From Candidatus Sulfotelmatobacter sp. (GTDB taxonomy: Bacteria > Acidobacteriota > Terriglobia > Terriglobales > Acidobacteriaceae): DNA of 64,000 nucleotides. The DNA is taken from positions 186,001 through 250,000 of the forward strand of contig DASYBM010000004.1 of assembly GCA_036500765.1 (NCBI GenBank). The letters run 5' to 3'. The translations under genes and the position numbers were made by a program. The notes under the pieces were generated by a model, which was not told the DNA's origin, made no database searches, and saw only the letters and a program-made list of their open reading frames with translations. Shown here in pieces: positions 9,291-14,497 of the stretch (position 1 is its first letter; each line of letters opens with the position of its first letter).

Positions 9291-10895
9291 CTACTTTCGC
9301 AATTCCTTCAAGATCTCGCGCGCGGCGTTCGCGCCCGATCCGCCGGTCAACCCCGCCCCAGGATGCGTCCCGCTGCCACACAAATATAAATTCTGAATCG
9401 GCGTCTTGTATCGCGCCCAATCCAGCAGCGGACGCATGGTGAAGAATTGATCGAGCGCCAGCTCTCCGTGAAAAATCTGGCCACCCGTCAATCCGTACTT
9501 TTCTTCTAGATCGAGCGGCGTGATGATCTGATGCGTCAGAATCAGTTCAGGGAGGTTCGGCGCATATTGCGCCAAGGTCTGCACCACCGTCTGCCCCAAC
9601 GCTTTGCGCTGGGCATCTCCGTTTCGATCTTCCCATCCGCCCTTTAATTTATACGGCGCGTACTGCATGTAGATCGACATCACATGCTTGCCGTCGGCCG
9701 CGAGCGTGGGGTCAGTCAGAGACGGAATCGTGCAATCGAGATGCGGCTGCCGGGAGAAGTCGCCATACTTCGACTCGTCGAACGCCCGTTCCAGATAGTC
9801 AATCTCGTTGCCGATGTGAATCCGCCCCTTGAGCGCACTGGCATCGCCATCTTTAAGCGCCCTGAATTTCGGCAGGCCCGACAGCGCCAGGTTCACCTTC
9901 GCGACCGTGCCATTCCCGCGATAGTGCTGCAGGCGCTGCACGAAATCGGGCGAAAGATGCGTCGGATCGGTCAGCTTGAGCAGCGTACGCTTCGGGTCGG
10001 CATTGGAGATCACTGTCTTTGCCTGAATTTCTTCTCCCGTCGAAAGCAGCACACCGGTGGCCGCTCCGTTCTGCACCCGAATCTCGATCACCTCTGCGGC
10101 CGTGCGAATTTCCACACCGGCAGCTTTTGCCGCCGATGCCATGGCCTGCGTAACCGCACCCATGCCGCCAGCAGCCAGAGCCGCCGAGCCTGCGGGATGA
10201 GAATCTCCGGCTGCGCGAATCAGCAGTACCAGCGCGCTTCCCGCTGACCACGGACCGAGAAAAGTTCCAAACACCCCGCGCGCCGCAATCACTGCTCGCA
10301 ACAATTCTGTTTCAAAATATTCCGACGCCAGGTCGGCCACGGCCATCGGCCCCCAGCGTAAGAGGCGAAACATGTCGCGCTTTCCTAAATTGCGAATTGC
10401 GCGCCCTGTTTTGAGCATGCTCCACAAATCGCCGCGAGTGGGGCTGTCGATGTCGGGAGGTGTCGTCGCCAGCGCCTCGCCGATCACTTTGGAAATCTTC
10501 GCCAGCGACTGCGCGAACTCCGGATACTTTGCGGCATCCTTCTGCGAGAAGGCTGCAATTTCCTGCGCCGATTTCCTCGGATCCTGATAGAGCGAAAGGG
10601 CGCGGCCATCCGGCGAAAGCGCCGTCACGCAAACGTCGGGCGTGATCCACTTCAGCCCGTGCTTATCGAGTTGCATATCGCGCACAATCCCCGGCAGAAT
10701 CGGCCCAGCCGTGTGCGCCAATGTCGAACAACGAAATCCCGGATGAAATTCATCGGTGATCGCCGCCCCTCCGACCTGCGCGCTGCGCTCGAGCACAAGC
10801 GGTTTATATCCGGCCTTGGCCAGATAGAAAGCGGTGATGAGCCCGTTGTGGCCGCCACCAATAATGACGATGTCGCGCTGGTTGCCAGTCGCCAT
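9291..10895 (-). CDS. FAD-dependent oxidoreductase, phytoene-desaturase-like (second of a tandem pair)
   Basis: Begins with a Rossmann FAD-binding motif (DIVIIGGGHNGL) and ends with the flavin-binding AGLTGGSG segment, preceded by YLCGSGTHPGA. Family COG1233, whose members include phytoene desaturases and the PYROXD2 group; the substrate cannot be read from sequence. It is a paralogue of the gene at 10895-12490, sharing the IVIGGGHNGL and LTDP/YAPYKL segments. The upstream stop and this ATG overlap as TGATG, so the two are translationally coupled. A GTG one codon upstream is an alternative start. Confidence 0.9.
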   Translation of the reverse strand: MATGNQRDIVIIGGGHNGLITAFYLAKAGYKPLVLERSAQVGGAAITDEFHPGFRCSTLAHTAGPILPGIVRDMQLDKHGLKWITPDVCVTALSPDGRALSLYQDPRKSAQEIAAFSQKDAAKYPEFAQSLAKISKVIGEALATTPPDIDSPTRGDLWSMLKTGRAIRNLGKRDMFRLLRWGPMAVADLASEYFETELLRAVIAARGVFGTFLGPWSAGSALVLLIRAAGDSHPAGSAALAAGGMGAVTQAMASAAKAAGVEIRTAAEVIEIRVQNGAATGVLLSTGEEIQAKTVISNADPKRTLLKLTDPTHLSPDFVQRLQHYRGNGTVAKVNLALSGLPKFRALKDGDASALKGRIHIGNEIDYLERAFDESKYGDFSRQPHLDCTIPSLTDPTLAADGKHVMSIYMQYAPYKLKGGWEDRNGDAQRKALGQTVVQTLAQYAPNLPELILTHQIITPLDLEEKYGLTGGQIFHGELALDQFFTMRPLLDWARYKTPIQNLYLCGSGTHPGAGLTGGSGANAAREILKELRK

Positions 10896-12490
10896 CACGC
10901 CGCTCCCTTAATGTCTTTCAGAATCTCCAGCGCCGCGAGCCGCCCATTTGCTCCCATGATGCCGCCGCCGGGATGCGTCGCCGATCCGCACATATATAAA
11001 TTCTTGATCGGCGTCCGGTACTGCGCCCACCCCGGCACGGGACGCAGGAAAAAAAGCTGCTCCAGCGAAAGCTCACCTTGAAAAATGTTGCCCTCGCTCA
11101 ATCCCCACTCGCGTTCGAGGTCGAGCGGGGTGATTACTTGTTTTTGAATAATGATGTCTTTGATGTTCGGCGCGTACTCGGCGATGGTATTGACGACCGT
11201 GTCGCCGAAGGCTTCTTTTTGATCGTCCCAGTTCAGCCCCGGTCGAAGCTTATACGGCGCATACTGCACGAAGCACGACAGCACATGTTTTCCGGGGGGC
11301 GCGACCGAAGGATCGGTCAGCGACGGAATCACCATGTCGATATACGGATGCCGCGAGAAGTTTCCGTACTTCGCATCGTCGTAAGCGCGTTCCATGTATT
11401 CCACCGACGGCGAAATCGAAATCGCGCCGCGCAGGTGCGCTCCTGGTCCGGGCATGCATTTGAAATTGGGCAGTCCGCTCAGCGCCATATTCACTTTGCC
11501 CGAAGAGCCGCGATACTTGAAGCGGTTCACGTCTTCCAGAAAATCTCCCGGCAAATTTCCGGCTTCGATGAACTTGGTGAACGTCAGCCGCGGATCGACG
11601 CTGGACGAGACCACGTCTGCGTAAATCTCGTCGCCATTGGCGAGCACCACGCCCTTGGCCTTGCCATTCTTAATAAGAATCTGCGAGATCGCTGACTTCG
11701 TGCGGATCTCCACGCCGGCCTCGCGTGCGGCATCCGCAATCGCGTTCGAGATCGCGCCCGTCCCGCCGCGCGCGAATCCCCAGGCGCGAAACGCACCGTC
11801 GATCTCTCCCATGTAATGGTGCAGCAACACGTACGCCGTCCCCGGCGAGCGCACGCCGAGAAACGTCCCGATAATTCCCGACGCCGACATCGTCGCCTTG
11901 AGCACGTCGGTCTCGAACCATTGATCGAGAAAATCAATGGCGGACATCGTCATCAGTTGCACTTGATTGTATTTGTCGTAGCTCGACATGCCCTGAAAGC
12001 GGCGTCCGATGAATAACAGCTTCATCAGTTCGCGCGGATCGAGCGTTGTCGGGTCTGGCGGCACCATGCTGAGAATCGGCTTCACGAAGCGGCACATAGC
12101 CTGCATCGCCTTGCCAAATTCGTCGTAAGCTTCGGCGTCCACGCGTGAGTGGCGGGCAATCTCGCGGTGCGTCTTGCCATGATCGTTCACGCGCCACAAA
12201 TAATCGCCGCTGGGCATGGGCGTGAACGTGCCGTCGAGCGGAAGAATTTCCAGCCCGTGCCGGGGCAAATCGAGGTCGCGAATTATCTCCGGCCGCAGCA
12301 GCGACACCACGTAAGAGCAAACCGAGAACTTAAATCCGGGCACAATTTCTTCCGTGCACGCCGCGCCGCCCAGCACGTGGCGGCGTTCCAGCACCAGCAC
12401 TTTCTTGCCGGCCTTCGCCAGGTACGCCGAGTTTACTAGCCCGTTGTGCCCGCCGCCGATCACGATTACGTCGTAGTTAGAACCAGCCAT
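10895..12490 (-). CDS. FAD-dependent oxidoreductase, phytoene-desaturase-like (first of a tandem pair)
   Basis: A 531-residue COG1233-type flavoprotein. The N-terminus has VIVIGGGHNGLV and the LERRHVLGGAA continuation of the FAD fold; the C-terminus has YMCGSATHPGGGIMG. It probably acts as a heteromeric or duplicated partner of the downstream paralogue, since the genes overlap by one base. There are no carotenoid synthesis genes (phytoene synthase) nearby, so carotenoid desaturation is not supported; amine or amino-acid oxidation is suggested only by the neighbouring GcvT-like and amino-acid permease genes. Confidence 0.9.
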   Translation of the reverse strand: MAGSNYDVIVIGGGHNGLVNSAYLAKAGKKVLVLERRHVLGGAACTEEIVPGFKFSVCSYVVSLLRPEIIRDLDLPRHGLEILPLDGTFTPMPSGDYLWRVNDHGKTHREIARHSRVDAEAYDEFGKAMQAMCRFVKPILSMVPPDPTTLDPRELMKLLFIGRRFQGMSSYDKYNQVQLMTMSAIDFLDQWFETDVLKATMSASGIIGTFLGVRSPGTAYVLLHHYMGEIDGAFRAWGFARGGTGAISNAIADAAREAGVEIRTKSAISQILIKNGKAKGVVLANGDEIYADVVSSSVDPRLTFTKFIEAGNLPGDFLEDVNRFKYRGSSGKVNMALSGLPNFKCMPGPGAHLRGAISISPSVEYMERAYDDAKYGNFSRHPYIDMVIPSLTDPSVAPPGKHVLSCFVQYAPYKLRPGLNWDDQKEAFGDTVVNTIAEYAPNIKDIIIQKQVITPLDLEREWGLSEGNIFQGELSLEQLFFLRPVPGWAQYRTPIKNLYMCGSATHPGGGIMGANGRLAALEILKDIKGAA

Positions 12491-12704
12491 GCGCTGTAGC
12501 TCCTAGCCCTTAGCGTTTCGATTCAATTGTCAGGAACGGTAATGATACTCGCGGATGGAAGAATGAGAGGAGTGTATTAGAGTCCGCTGGGAAGGACAGT
12601 CCAGCTGCGGAGCATGCTCAACGAGGATGGTGTGAAGCGTTGCATCGTGAATCAGCATTCTATCGGGAAGCGCCGGTTTTGTCTGTAGTGTTCGCAAACG
12701 AGCC
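12491..12704. other. Intergenic region upstream of the FAD oxidoreductase pair
   Basis: About 210 bases without a supported gene. It should hold the promoter of the minus-strand oxidoreductase pair. I see no clear operator or riboswitch; the repeat-bounded GIY-YIG unit begins at 12705. Confidence 0.4.
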
Positions 12705-12754
12705 GGCGTCATCCTGAAGCCCCGCGTTTTCTTTAGCGGGGCGAGGGATCTCCC
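12705..12754 (+). repeat. Left arm of a 50-bp inverted repeat flanking the GIY-YIG gene
   Basis: Runs from GGCGTCATCCTGAAG to GAGGGATCTCCC. It contains its own hairpin: GCCCCGC at 12719-12725 pairs with GCGGGGC at 12736-12742. Its reverse complement matches the right arm (13144-13193) at 46 of 50 positions, the differences all being A/G changes. Related repeats with the same flanks but other stem sequences occur near 24822 and 36935. Confidence 0.9.
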
Positions 12755-12817
12755 AGCGACCGATCCAATGTTCATCCGTCACAGACTCGGCCCGTACACA
12801 TCTAGTAAAGAAGAAGA

Positions 12818-13144
12818 ATGGCAAAGCTATTCTTCGTTTACATCATGACGAACAGCCCGGATTCCGCCGTCCTCTATGCGGGCATAACGGGCGACCTTGT
12901 ACACCGCGTCTGGCAGCACAAGAACAAGTTGGTTCGCGGCTTCACCAGTCGCTATAACCTGACTCGACTCGTGTACTATGAGCGATTTTGCTATCCCGAC
13001 GCGGCGATGAACCGTGAAAAGGAAATCAAAGGGTGGCGGCGAAGCAAGAAGATCAGACTCATCGACTCCGCGAATCCCCGATGGGAAGACTTGGCCAAAG
13101 ACTGGCAAAACCTGTACAAGCCATGCCCCGAAGCTGATCAGTAG
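12818..13144 (+). CDS. GIY-YIG nuclease superfamily protein (YhbQ-like)
   Basis: A 108-residue single-domain protein. The two GIY-YIG strands read VYIM (7-10) and YAGIT (20-24); the conserved Arg30 (VHRVWQHK) and the catalytic Glu of REKEIKGWRR (Glu67) are present, so the active site looks intact. It resembles the widespread small GIY-YIG proteins of ~90-100 residues. The stop codon overlaps the first base of the right 50-bp repeat, and the left repeat ends 63 bases before the start, so gene plus repeats look like one unit. No other nuclease or restriction gene adjoins. Confidence 0.9.
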   Translation: MAKLFFVYIMTNSPDSAVLYAGITGDLVHRVWQHKNKLVRGFTSRYNLTRLVYYERFCYPDAAMNREKEIKGWRRSKKIRLIDSANPRWEDLAKDWQNLYKPCPEADQ

Positions 13145-13193
13145 GGAGATCCCTCGCCCCGCTGGAGAGAACGCGGGGCTTCGGGATGACGCC
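13144..13193 (-). repeat. Right arm of the inverted repeat flanking the GIY-YIG gene
   Basis: Reads GGGAGATCCCTCGCCCCGC to GGGATGACGCC. It has an internal stem GCCCCGC (13156-13162) with GCGGGGC (13173-13179). It matches the reverse complement of 12705-12754 with four transitions and begins at the last base of the nuclease stop codon. Confidence 0.9.
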
Positions 13194-13285: not shown

Positions 13286-14497
13286 TTGCCCATCGGAACC
13301 GCATTTCACGAGCGCACTTTCCCCCTTTGCCATAGCCTGAATTACCGCGAGTGGTCTGGCTACTACACTGTCAGCGTGTATGAAGTTCATCACGAGCACG
13401 AGTACAACGCCATTCGCAACGCCGCTGCGCTAATCGATATTTCCCCGCTGTACAAATATCTCGTCACTGGCAACGACGCCACGCGACTCGTCAACCGCGT
13501 GATCACGCGCGACATTAACAAAGTCAAAGTCGGGCAGGTGATTTATTGCTGCTGGTGCGACGAAGAGGGCAAGGTCATCGACGATGGCACGATCTCGCGC
13601 CTCGAAGAAAATGTCTATCGCTGGACCGCCGCCGACCCCAGCCTGCGCTGGTTTCGCCAGAACGGCCTGAACATGGACGTGCAGGTCGAAGACATTTCCG
13701 AAAAAGTTGCGGCGCTGGCTTTGCAGGGCCCGACATCGGCCAAGCTGCTCAAGACTGTTGCCGAGGCCGACATCTCGGATCTCAAATATTTTCGCGTCAC
13801 GCGCGGCAAAATTGCCGGCGTCCCCGTCGACATTTCCCGCACCGGCTACACCGGCGATCTCGGCTACGAAATCTGGGTACCATGCGCGAATGGAGAAAAG
13901 GACAACGCGATTAAAGTCTGGGACGCGCTGGCCGCGGCCGGCAAAGAATTCGATCTGCACGCTGTTGGCATGCTGGCGCTCGACGTCGCGCGCGTCGAAG
14001 CCGGGCTGCTCCTCATCGAAGTCGATTACACGAGCTCAAAGAAAGCGCTGATTCCGTCGCAAAAGTTTTCACCCTACGAACTGGGCTTCGCCAAGATGGT
14101 CCATCTCGACAAAGAAAACTTCATCGGCAAGCGCGCTCTGGAGCAAGATGCGAAGAACGGTGTACCTCGGCAACTCGTTGGCCTCGAGGTGGACTGGACC
14201 GACATCGAGGCGCTCTATGATCGTTACGGCCTCACTCCAGCCGCGCCCGCGCAGGCTTCGCGCGTCGCAGTCCCGGTGTACGCGGGCGAGAAGCAGGCCG
14301 GCAAGGCGACAACCACGAGTTGGTCGCCGATCCTGAAAAAGTTGGTCGCGCTGGCCAGCATTGAAACGGAATATGCGAAGCCGGGAACGGCGTTGCAGAT
14401 GGAGATCACCATCGAAGCGATGCGGCTAAAAACAAATGTCAAGGTGACGAACTTGCCATTCTTCAACCCGCCGCGAAAGACGGCGACTCCGGTGTGA
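13286..14497 (+). CDS. gcvT: GcvT-like aminomethyltransferase / folate-binding protein
   Basis: Member of the GcvT family, which uses tetrahydrofolate to accept a one-carbon unit from aminomethyl groups (glycine cleavage T-protein) or from dimethylglycine/sarcosine-type substrates. Visible family features: DISPLYKYLVTGNDA near residue 48, LALQGPTSAKLL near 145, SRTGYTGDLGYEIW near 185, and C-terminal SPILKKLVALASIE. No gcvH, gcvP or lipoate genes are near, so glycine cleavage proper is uncertain; the neighbouring flavoproteins suggest an oxidative demethylation role. Start is TTG at 13286, supported by GAGGA eight bases upstream. At 403 residues it is longer than E. coli GcvT (364). Confidence 0.85.
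   Translation: MPIGTAFHERTFPLCHSLNYREWSGYYTVSVYEVHHEHEYNAIRNAAALIDISPLYKYLVTGNDATRLVNRVITRDINKVKVGQVIYCCWCDEEGKVIDDGTISRLEENVYRWTAADPSLRWFRQNGLNMDVQVEDISEKVAALALQGPTSAKLLKTVAEADISDLKYFRVTRGKIAGVPVDISRTGYTGDLGYEIWVPCANGEKDNAIKVWDALAAAGKEFDLHAVGMLALDVARVEAGLLLIEVDYTSSKKALIPSQKFSPYELGFAKMVHLDKENFIGKRALEQDAKNGVPRQLVGLEVDWTDIEALYDRYGLTPAAPAQASRVAVPVYAGEKQAGKATTTSWSPILKKLVALASIETEYAKPGTALQMEITIEAMRLKTNVKVTNLPFFNPPRKTATPV

Follow-up and report, generated by a model that had tools for sequence, protein, structure and literature searches.

A GIY-YIG nuclease gene between inverted CGTC-type REP hairpins: a candidate single-gene mobile element of bacteria

The nuclease gene and its hairpin ends

In the window, i.e., the whole 64-kb stretch of DNA that was analyzed, a short gene encoding a GIY-YIG nuclease is located between two inverted hairpin-forming repeat units, situated between an oxidoreductase-like and an aminomethyltransferase-like gene (Table 1). 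The repeat search identified an inverted pair of 50-nt arms (12705-12754 and 13144-13193), 92% complementary and spaced by 389 nt, with four mismatches, each of them T/C; the repeat search and the reading of the sequence agree with the first-pass annotation, which had described 50-bp arms matching at 46 of 50 positions and differing by transitions only. From the outside in, both arms read CGTC, the hairpin spelled out in Table 1 and CTCCC, and their CGTC ends are directed outward from the nuclease gene. Folded as single-stranded DNA, the left and right arms reach z-scores of about -2. The 7-bp stem noted earlier in each arm was recovered as the upper stem of a longer hairpin, which has an additional 5-bp basal stem, and the reported overlap of gene and repeat was likewise found, with base 13144 shared between the TAG stop codon (13142-13144) and the right arm. 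A scan of the 64-kb window for units of the same form returned none besides the two flanking the nuclease gene.

Table 1. Features of the element and its surroundings, in window coordinates
Feature	Position	Strand	Basis
Whole element, outer CGTC tag to outer GACG tag (485 bp)	12707..13191	+	Arm reading and repeat search
Left CGTC tag, unpaired, outward	12707..12710	+	Sequence; tag identical to that of CGTC REPs
Left hairpin, ATCCT-GAA-GCCCCGC-loop-GCGGGGC-GA-GGGAT	12711..12749	+	DNA fold, -10.7 kcal/mol; compensatory change in homologous units
Left unit inner tail, CTCCC	12750..12754	+	Sequence, repeat search
ATGTTCATCCGTCACAGAC between left unit and gene	12768..12786	+	Shared with the second home copy and congeners
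GIY-YIG nuclease gene (108 aa)	12818..13144	+	ORF, Pfam, conserved residues, model
Right unit inner tail, 1-base overlap with stop codon	13144..13148	-	Sequence, repeat search
Right hairpin	13149..13187	-	DNA fold, -12.7 kcal/mol
Right CGTC tag (GACG on +), outward	13188..13191	-	Sequence
Left neighbor, FAD-dependent oxidoreductase-like gene	10895..12490	-	Putative name from sequence appearance; kept beside the site in congeners
Right neighbor, aminomethyltransferase (GcvT)-like gene	13286..14497	+	Putative name from sequence appearance

The gene product matches the Pfam GIY-YIG family (PF01541, E 2.8e-12) and carries the conserved catalytic residues Tyr8, Tyr20, Arg30, His34 and Glu67; these residues are also kept in 83 intact relatives. 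The AlphaFold2 model (pLDDT 87.9) has UPF0213 proteins and Slx1 as its nearest folds, and a PDB sequence search with the window protein matched UPF0213 proteins only. The nearest solved structure by both sequence and fold belongs to these single-domain GIY-YIG proteins (BH0048, PDB 1ZG2), for which we know of no described link to repeats. Slx1 is a structure-selective endonuclease of similar nuclease fold that acts on branched DNA; in contrast to the window enzyme, it is eukaryotic and has a partner, Slx4, and a further domain, and to our knowledge it has no link to repeats. Defence-system and NCBIfam model searches gave no match. The window enzyme is described here, from its model, as a putative Slx1-like GIY-YIG nuclease, for which DNA cleavage is predicted.

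The 19-nt segment ATGTTCATCCGTCACAGAC may be a promoter or operator. It is also found upstream of the nuclease gene in loci L002 and L155-L160, and in L006 it is located outside the element. A second conserved block, at 12575-12700 (TTAGAGTCCGCTGGGAAGGACAGTCCAGC ... TTCTATCGGGAA ... TTTTGTCTG), lies upstream of the leftward gene and is kept in 17 congeners; an Rfam search with it gave no credible match and its consensus fold is not strong, and it is probably a promoter or operator.

Units and nuclease relatives across genomes

The 5.04-Mb home assembly contains eight genes related to the window nuclease, seven of which are flanked on both sides by outward-facing units built as YGTC + AT..hairpin..AT + CT, while at the eighth (L005) a clear unit pair is seen on just one side. 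A second copy, on contig C16, is 91% identical to the window copy in protein and 88% in DNA and has the same arms, so the window arrangement goes beyond chance; homology between the two copies starts, at the left boundary, exactly at GTCAT. The strict unit pattern has 147 matches in the home genome and none in the reversed control, and 18 units were observed within 300 bp of the eight nuclease genes against 0.21 expected (Poisson 8e-29). Among the 100 units listed, all 11 adjacent pairs less than 200 bp apart face outward, as around the nuclease genes. Unit density and non-coding controls served as the null for the link between nuclease genes and units; an inverted-repeat test against the flanks of other loci is a poor null because these flanks contain the same repeat.

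A ninth GIY-YIG gene of the home genome is apparently uvrC, judging from its 704-aa open frame, and the 3.2-kb locus searched around it has no unit core, on which ground a general effect of GIY-YIG genes was rejected. The commonest home unit type (GTCATCCTGAGCGNAGCCGTTNTTCAGGCG...) has no matching nuclease at home, and close likenesses of it bracket the nuclease in L010 and L085. Near-perfect CRP-like palindromes (TGTGA-N6-TCACA) are located 50-130 bp upstream of the nuclease gene in L004, L007 and L008; such an operator was rejected as a general part of the element, being present in only three of eight home copies and elsewhere close to the null.

A scan of GTDB genomes yielded 80 relatives of the nuclease from about 20 phyla (judged by record title), or 88 together with the eight home copies. 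The unit core GTCAYYCHGA is present within 300 bp of the gene in 86 of the 88 and faces outward on both sides in 48. Its density is 5.4 per kb near the nuclease gene versus 0.19 per kb at distances above 800 bp; within non-coding DNA only, the values at the same loci are 7.7 and 1.1 per kb, an enrichment of about 7-fold near the gene. The repeats are thus a regular companion of other members of this clade, where their absence had been named by the first-pass annotation as evidence against its proposal.

Across 53 loci, conservation outside the unit ends one base past GTCA, and the base preceding GTCA is T or C in 50 of them, on either side. The inverted repeats at the ends of the window element resemble those of a classical DNA transposon; however, the paired flanking units are mostly unlike in their stems (39 of 53 loci not above the cross-locus 95% level), which is unusual for classical ends, and direct repeats of 4-9 nt outside the tags, as a target-site duplication would leave, show no excess at these 53 loci.

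Within the set of 244 distinct units, the first variable stem position has C-G or T-A pairing in 206 of 215 C/T-by-G/A cells (Fisher 2e-49), and the second is matched in 211 of 225 (Fisher 8e-33). This covariation is not built in, because the search pattern left the tested positions free. The T position of the stem AT is Watson-Crick paired in 91% of the 244 units. The units evolve as hairpins, with strong compensatory change, and the hairpin is under selection. The shortest units, of 26 nt and found in many genomes, have a GCGAAGC tip over a tandem G-A mismatch. GCGAAGC forms an unusually stable DNA mini-hairpin, and such a tip would suit folding as single-stranded DNA.

Nuclease and units also co-occur at the level of whole genomes. 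Among 151 genomes of the class, at least five units were found in 61 of 74 with a nuclease match versus 14 of 77 without one (Fisher 6e-16, a test that treats the genomes as independent of phylogeny). Four families, comprising 53 genomes together, lack strong nuclease matches and are essentially free of units. Some unit-rich genomes are without a close nuclease copy, which counts against spread driven by the nuclease.

Occupied, altered and empty sites

The intergenic site of the window can be aligned within the genus, where it is filled, inverted, scarred or empty. The element is present in the same orientation in one congener (G003) and inverted in five (G001, G011, G012, G023 and G027); a remnant persists in G036 and only a fused palindrome in G021 and G035, and the site has no unit in G022, G034, G015 and others. 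One apparently empty site, L168, may be a decayed remnant (GGATGGCGCC) and is not relied on. The inversion (L155-L159) is the outcome that recombination between the arms would give.

In a tree of the genus copies that is otherwise mostly unresolved, the C16 copy groups as sister to the window copy (support 84/99), and six congeners are free of units at the C16 site; the element has therefore likely moved or been copied recently. Fixation of the unit at a single locus in all relatives, which the first-pass annotation had set against its own proposal, is contradicted by the variable window site and by the six congeners with an empty C16 site. At the L006 site the gene is absent in four congeners, two of which retain a single or partial unit. 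The insertion junctions at the C16 and L006 sites are only approximate because the flanks are 75-87% identical.

A similar pattern was found in Sphingobium plasmids, where the gap between fnrL and a response regulator contains the element in seven records and is free of it in four. Two of the four element-free records carry CGTCACCCCGGGTCAAGCCCGGGGTGACG or a near copy, the expected product of deletion between the stem arms. Fused palindromes with both tags and no gene were also seen in L149, L154, L244 and L245 (Acidobacteria, Sphingobium), and they look like recurrent scars of such deletions. Scars and single units at gene-less sites also fit the loss of an older element or the earlier presence of units. 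The number of nuclease copies per genome ranges from 0 to 8, and truncated and remnant copies are present.

Relation to CGTC-tagged REPs and candidate mechanism

CGTC-tagged REPs, whose stems start with complementary AT, have been reported in Neisseriae (as dRS3), A. lipoferum, N. aromaticivorans and S. meliloti; no tyrosine transposase flanked by a CGTC unit was described, and these REPs 'apparently lack a dedicated transposase' (Di Nocera, De Gregorio and Rocco 2013, PMC3733652). With this superfamily, which includes Neisseria dRS3 and Rickettsia RPE-4/RPE-6, the window units share the YGTC tag at an unpaired end (CGTC, among the CGTC/TGTC/CCTC variants), complementary AT at stem positions 1-2 (ATCCT...GGGAT when folded), a short C-rich tail and, as the matches in the home genome demonstrate, many dispersed copies, mostly in inverted pairs of one polarity. 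They differ in being longer, a stem of 5 + 7 bp interrupted by a G-A internal loop and capped by a loop of 10 nt taking the place of the 8-9 bp stem and 4-5 nt loop that the Neisseria, Azospirillum and Aeromonas units do have, and in their host, since Acidobacteria are not given as a CGTC-positive phylum in PMC3733652.

A tblastn search of PLSDB identified the same protein family in Neisseria gonorrhoeae, Azospirillum lipoferum, Novosphingobium aromaticivorans and Sinorhizobium meliloti, among others, and further in Sphingobium, Aeromonas caviae, Rhizobium, Shinella, Photobacterium and Planktothrix. Nine of the ten loci inspected have outward-facing tagged units on either side of the gene; in Photobacterium units are confined to one side. 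The Neisseria nuclease locus has the outward-facing tagged unit CGTCATTCCCGCGCAGGCGGGAATCC, and inverted repeats of 28-36 nt, perfect or nearly so, were found at the Azospirillum, Novosphingobium, Sphingobium, Rhizobium, Aeromonas and Shinella loci. At the Neisseria, Azospirillum, Sphingobium, Rhizobium, Shinella and Aeromonas loci, the REPs that bracket the nuclease gene are of the canonical CGTC kind. Among open-access PMC papers, none was found that links GIY-YIG to REP, dRS3, REPIN, a palindromic element or RAYT.

The REP-RAYT systems (REPtrons, REPINs; TnpA-REP) have the same layout of one small enzyme gene between inverted hairpins with a fixed 4-nt tag, and likewise many further units, single or in inverted pairs, that lie apart from any enzyme gene. 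Their tag is GTAG and their enzyme an HUH tyrosine transposase, whereas the window system has YGTC (CGTC) and a GIY-YIG protein (PF01541); since tag and enzyme both differ, it stands outside REP-RAYT. Nuclease and units are linked across phyla, co-occur, and differ in position between close relatives. The earlier suggestion of a nuclease-linked system of repeat mobilisation resembling RAYT/REP is supported as an association, from which we infer a nuclease that works on the units and mobilises them; the kinship of the repeats with CGTC-tagged REPs and the reach of the pairing across phyla go beyond that suggestion. Our preferred reading, which we consider probable, is a single-gene REP-type mobile element with an Slx1-like GIY-YIG nuclease in the place of RAYT.

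The ends of the element are the inverted CGTC-type REP units, with the unpaired YGTC outermost and an AT-bounded stem. We hypothesize that the nuclease would recognise the extruded hairpin together with its tag and nick the DNA where tag and stem meet, or close by. The stretch enclosed by two outward tags would then be released or copied and inserted elsewhere without duplication of target bases, and the same enzyme would act in trans on dispersed gene-less outward unit pairs; the palindromic scars of relatives would be the product of later deletions between stem arms. A structure-selective enzyme would presumably tolerate unlike end hairpins, as most loci show. Such a system would work much as REP/RAYT does, with a hydrolytic nuclease replacing the HUH tyrosine transposase. 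GIY-YIG nucleases have no known means of joining DNA by themselves, and the element would have to rely on the host for this step.

The main rival is a homing parasite: the nuclease would cut existing outward unit pairs, its gene would be copied in through unit homology, and the units would spread by other means. Free-standing GIY-YIG genes can home, as phage T4 Seg enzymes do, and these too are single small non-intron genes that may spread themselves; gene-less outward unit pairs resemble empty targets, the single or partial units kept at the L006 site in two congeners would suit such invasion, and flanking units are often unlike. The window gene, unlike the Seg genes, is bounded by dispersed hairpin repeats that also occur without it, at many unrelated sites per genome. 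Against homing, the C16 site is entirely unit-free in six congeners, the arms of the two home copies have diverged about as much as their genes, as if the whole element had moved together, and homing would leave the spread of the units unexplained, with no other enzyme linked to them. We regard homing as unlikely on balance.

That the nuclease is a host maintenance gene, trimming REP cruciforms and placed among REPs by linked selection or regulation, is improbable: its fold is like that of Slx1, a repair nuclease for branched DNA, but a copy number of 0 to 8, truncated and remnant copies, and inverted and missing copies at one site within a genus do not suit such a role, which has no need for the enzyme to sit inside a unit pair at every locus. 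Movement of the units by a RAYT or another tyrosine transposase, with the nuclease as a passenger, is more doubtful still. The home genome does have seven Y1_Tnp genes, but none has a unit within 300 bp, against the 18 units near the eight nuclease genes, and CGTC units were not found flanking tyrosine transposases by Di Nocera et al. (PMC3733652); RAYT-like mobilisation was rejected on the bare Y1_Tnp genes of the home genome. Some intergenic regions of this kind gather several unrelated repeats, but a shared junk-collecting spot is the least credible reading given the consistent outward orientation, and chance was ruled out by the unit counts and the non-coding control.

We give about even chances to a broader proposal, in which the entire CGTC/TGTC REP superfamily, across about 20 phyla, has its dedicated mobilising enzyme in this GIY-YIG clade. 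It would be a transposition-like bacterial system driven by a hydrolytic and structure-selective nuclease of Slx1 type, with no DDE, HUH, serine or tyrosine transposase involved. For one of the two great families of short palindromic repeats in bacteria, the enzyme behind their spread has been missing, and the nuclease is a strong candidate for that role. How CGTC REPs spread was left open by Di Nocera et al. (2013); a candidate gene is now at hand in many genomes, which opens the question to experiments on a protein of 100 residues and a hairpin of 50 nt. If the proposal is true, an enzyme would be assigned to one of the most widespread kinds of bacterial repeat, and a role in moving DNA would be added to those in homing, repair and restriction for which the nuclease fold is known.

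Enzymes beside fully paired CGTC units (L233-L242) tend to read KKW or KRW..WK, and those beside TGTCATYCTGAG units (L001-L088) read KGW..KKI, a possible co-variation of enzyme and repeat that is confounded by descent. In Azospirillum (L234) and Shinella (L240) the nuclease gene lies just after sufB, in an apparent suf operon and with unlike hairpins, and in the annotated Azospirillum record it precedes sufC. The Planktothrix gene (L242) has an MmeI-type restriction enzyme on one side and the DISARM helicase drmA on the other.
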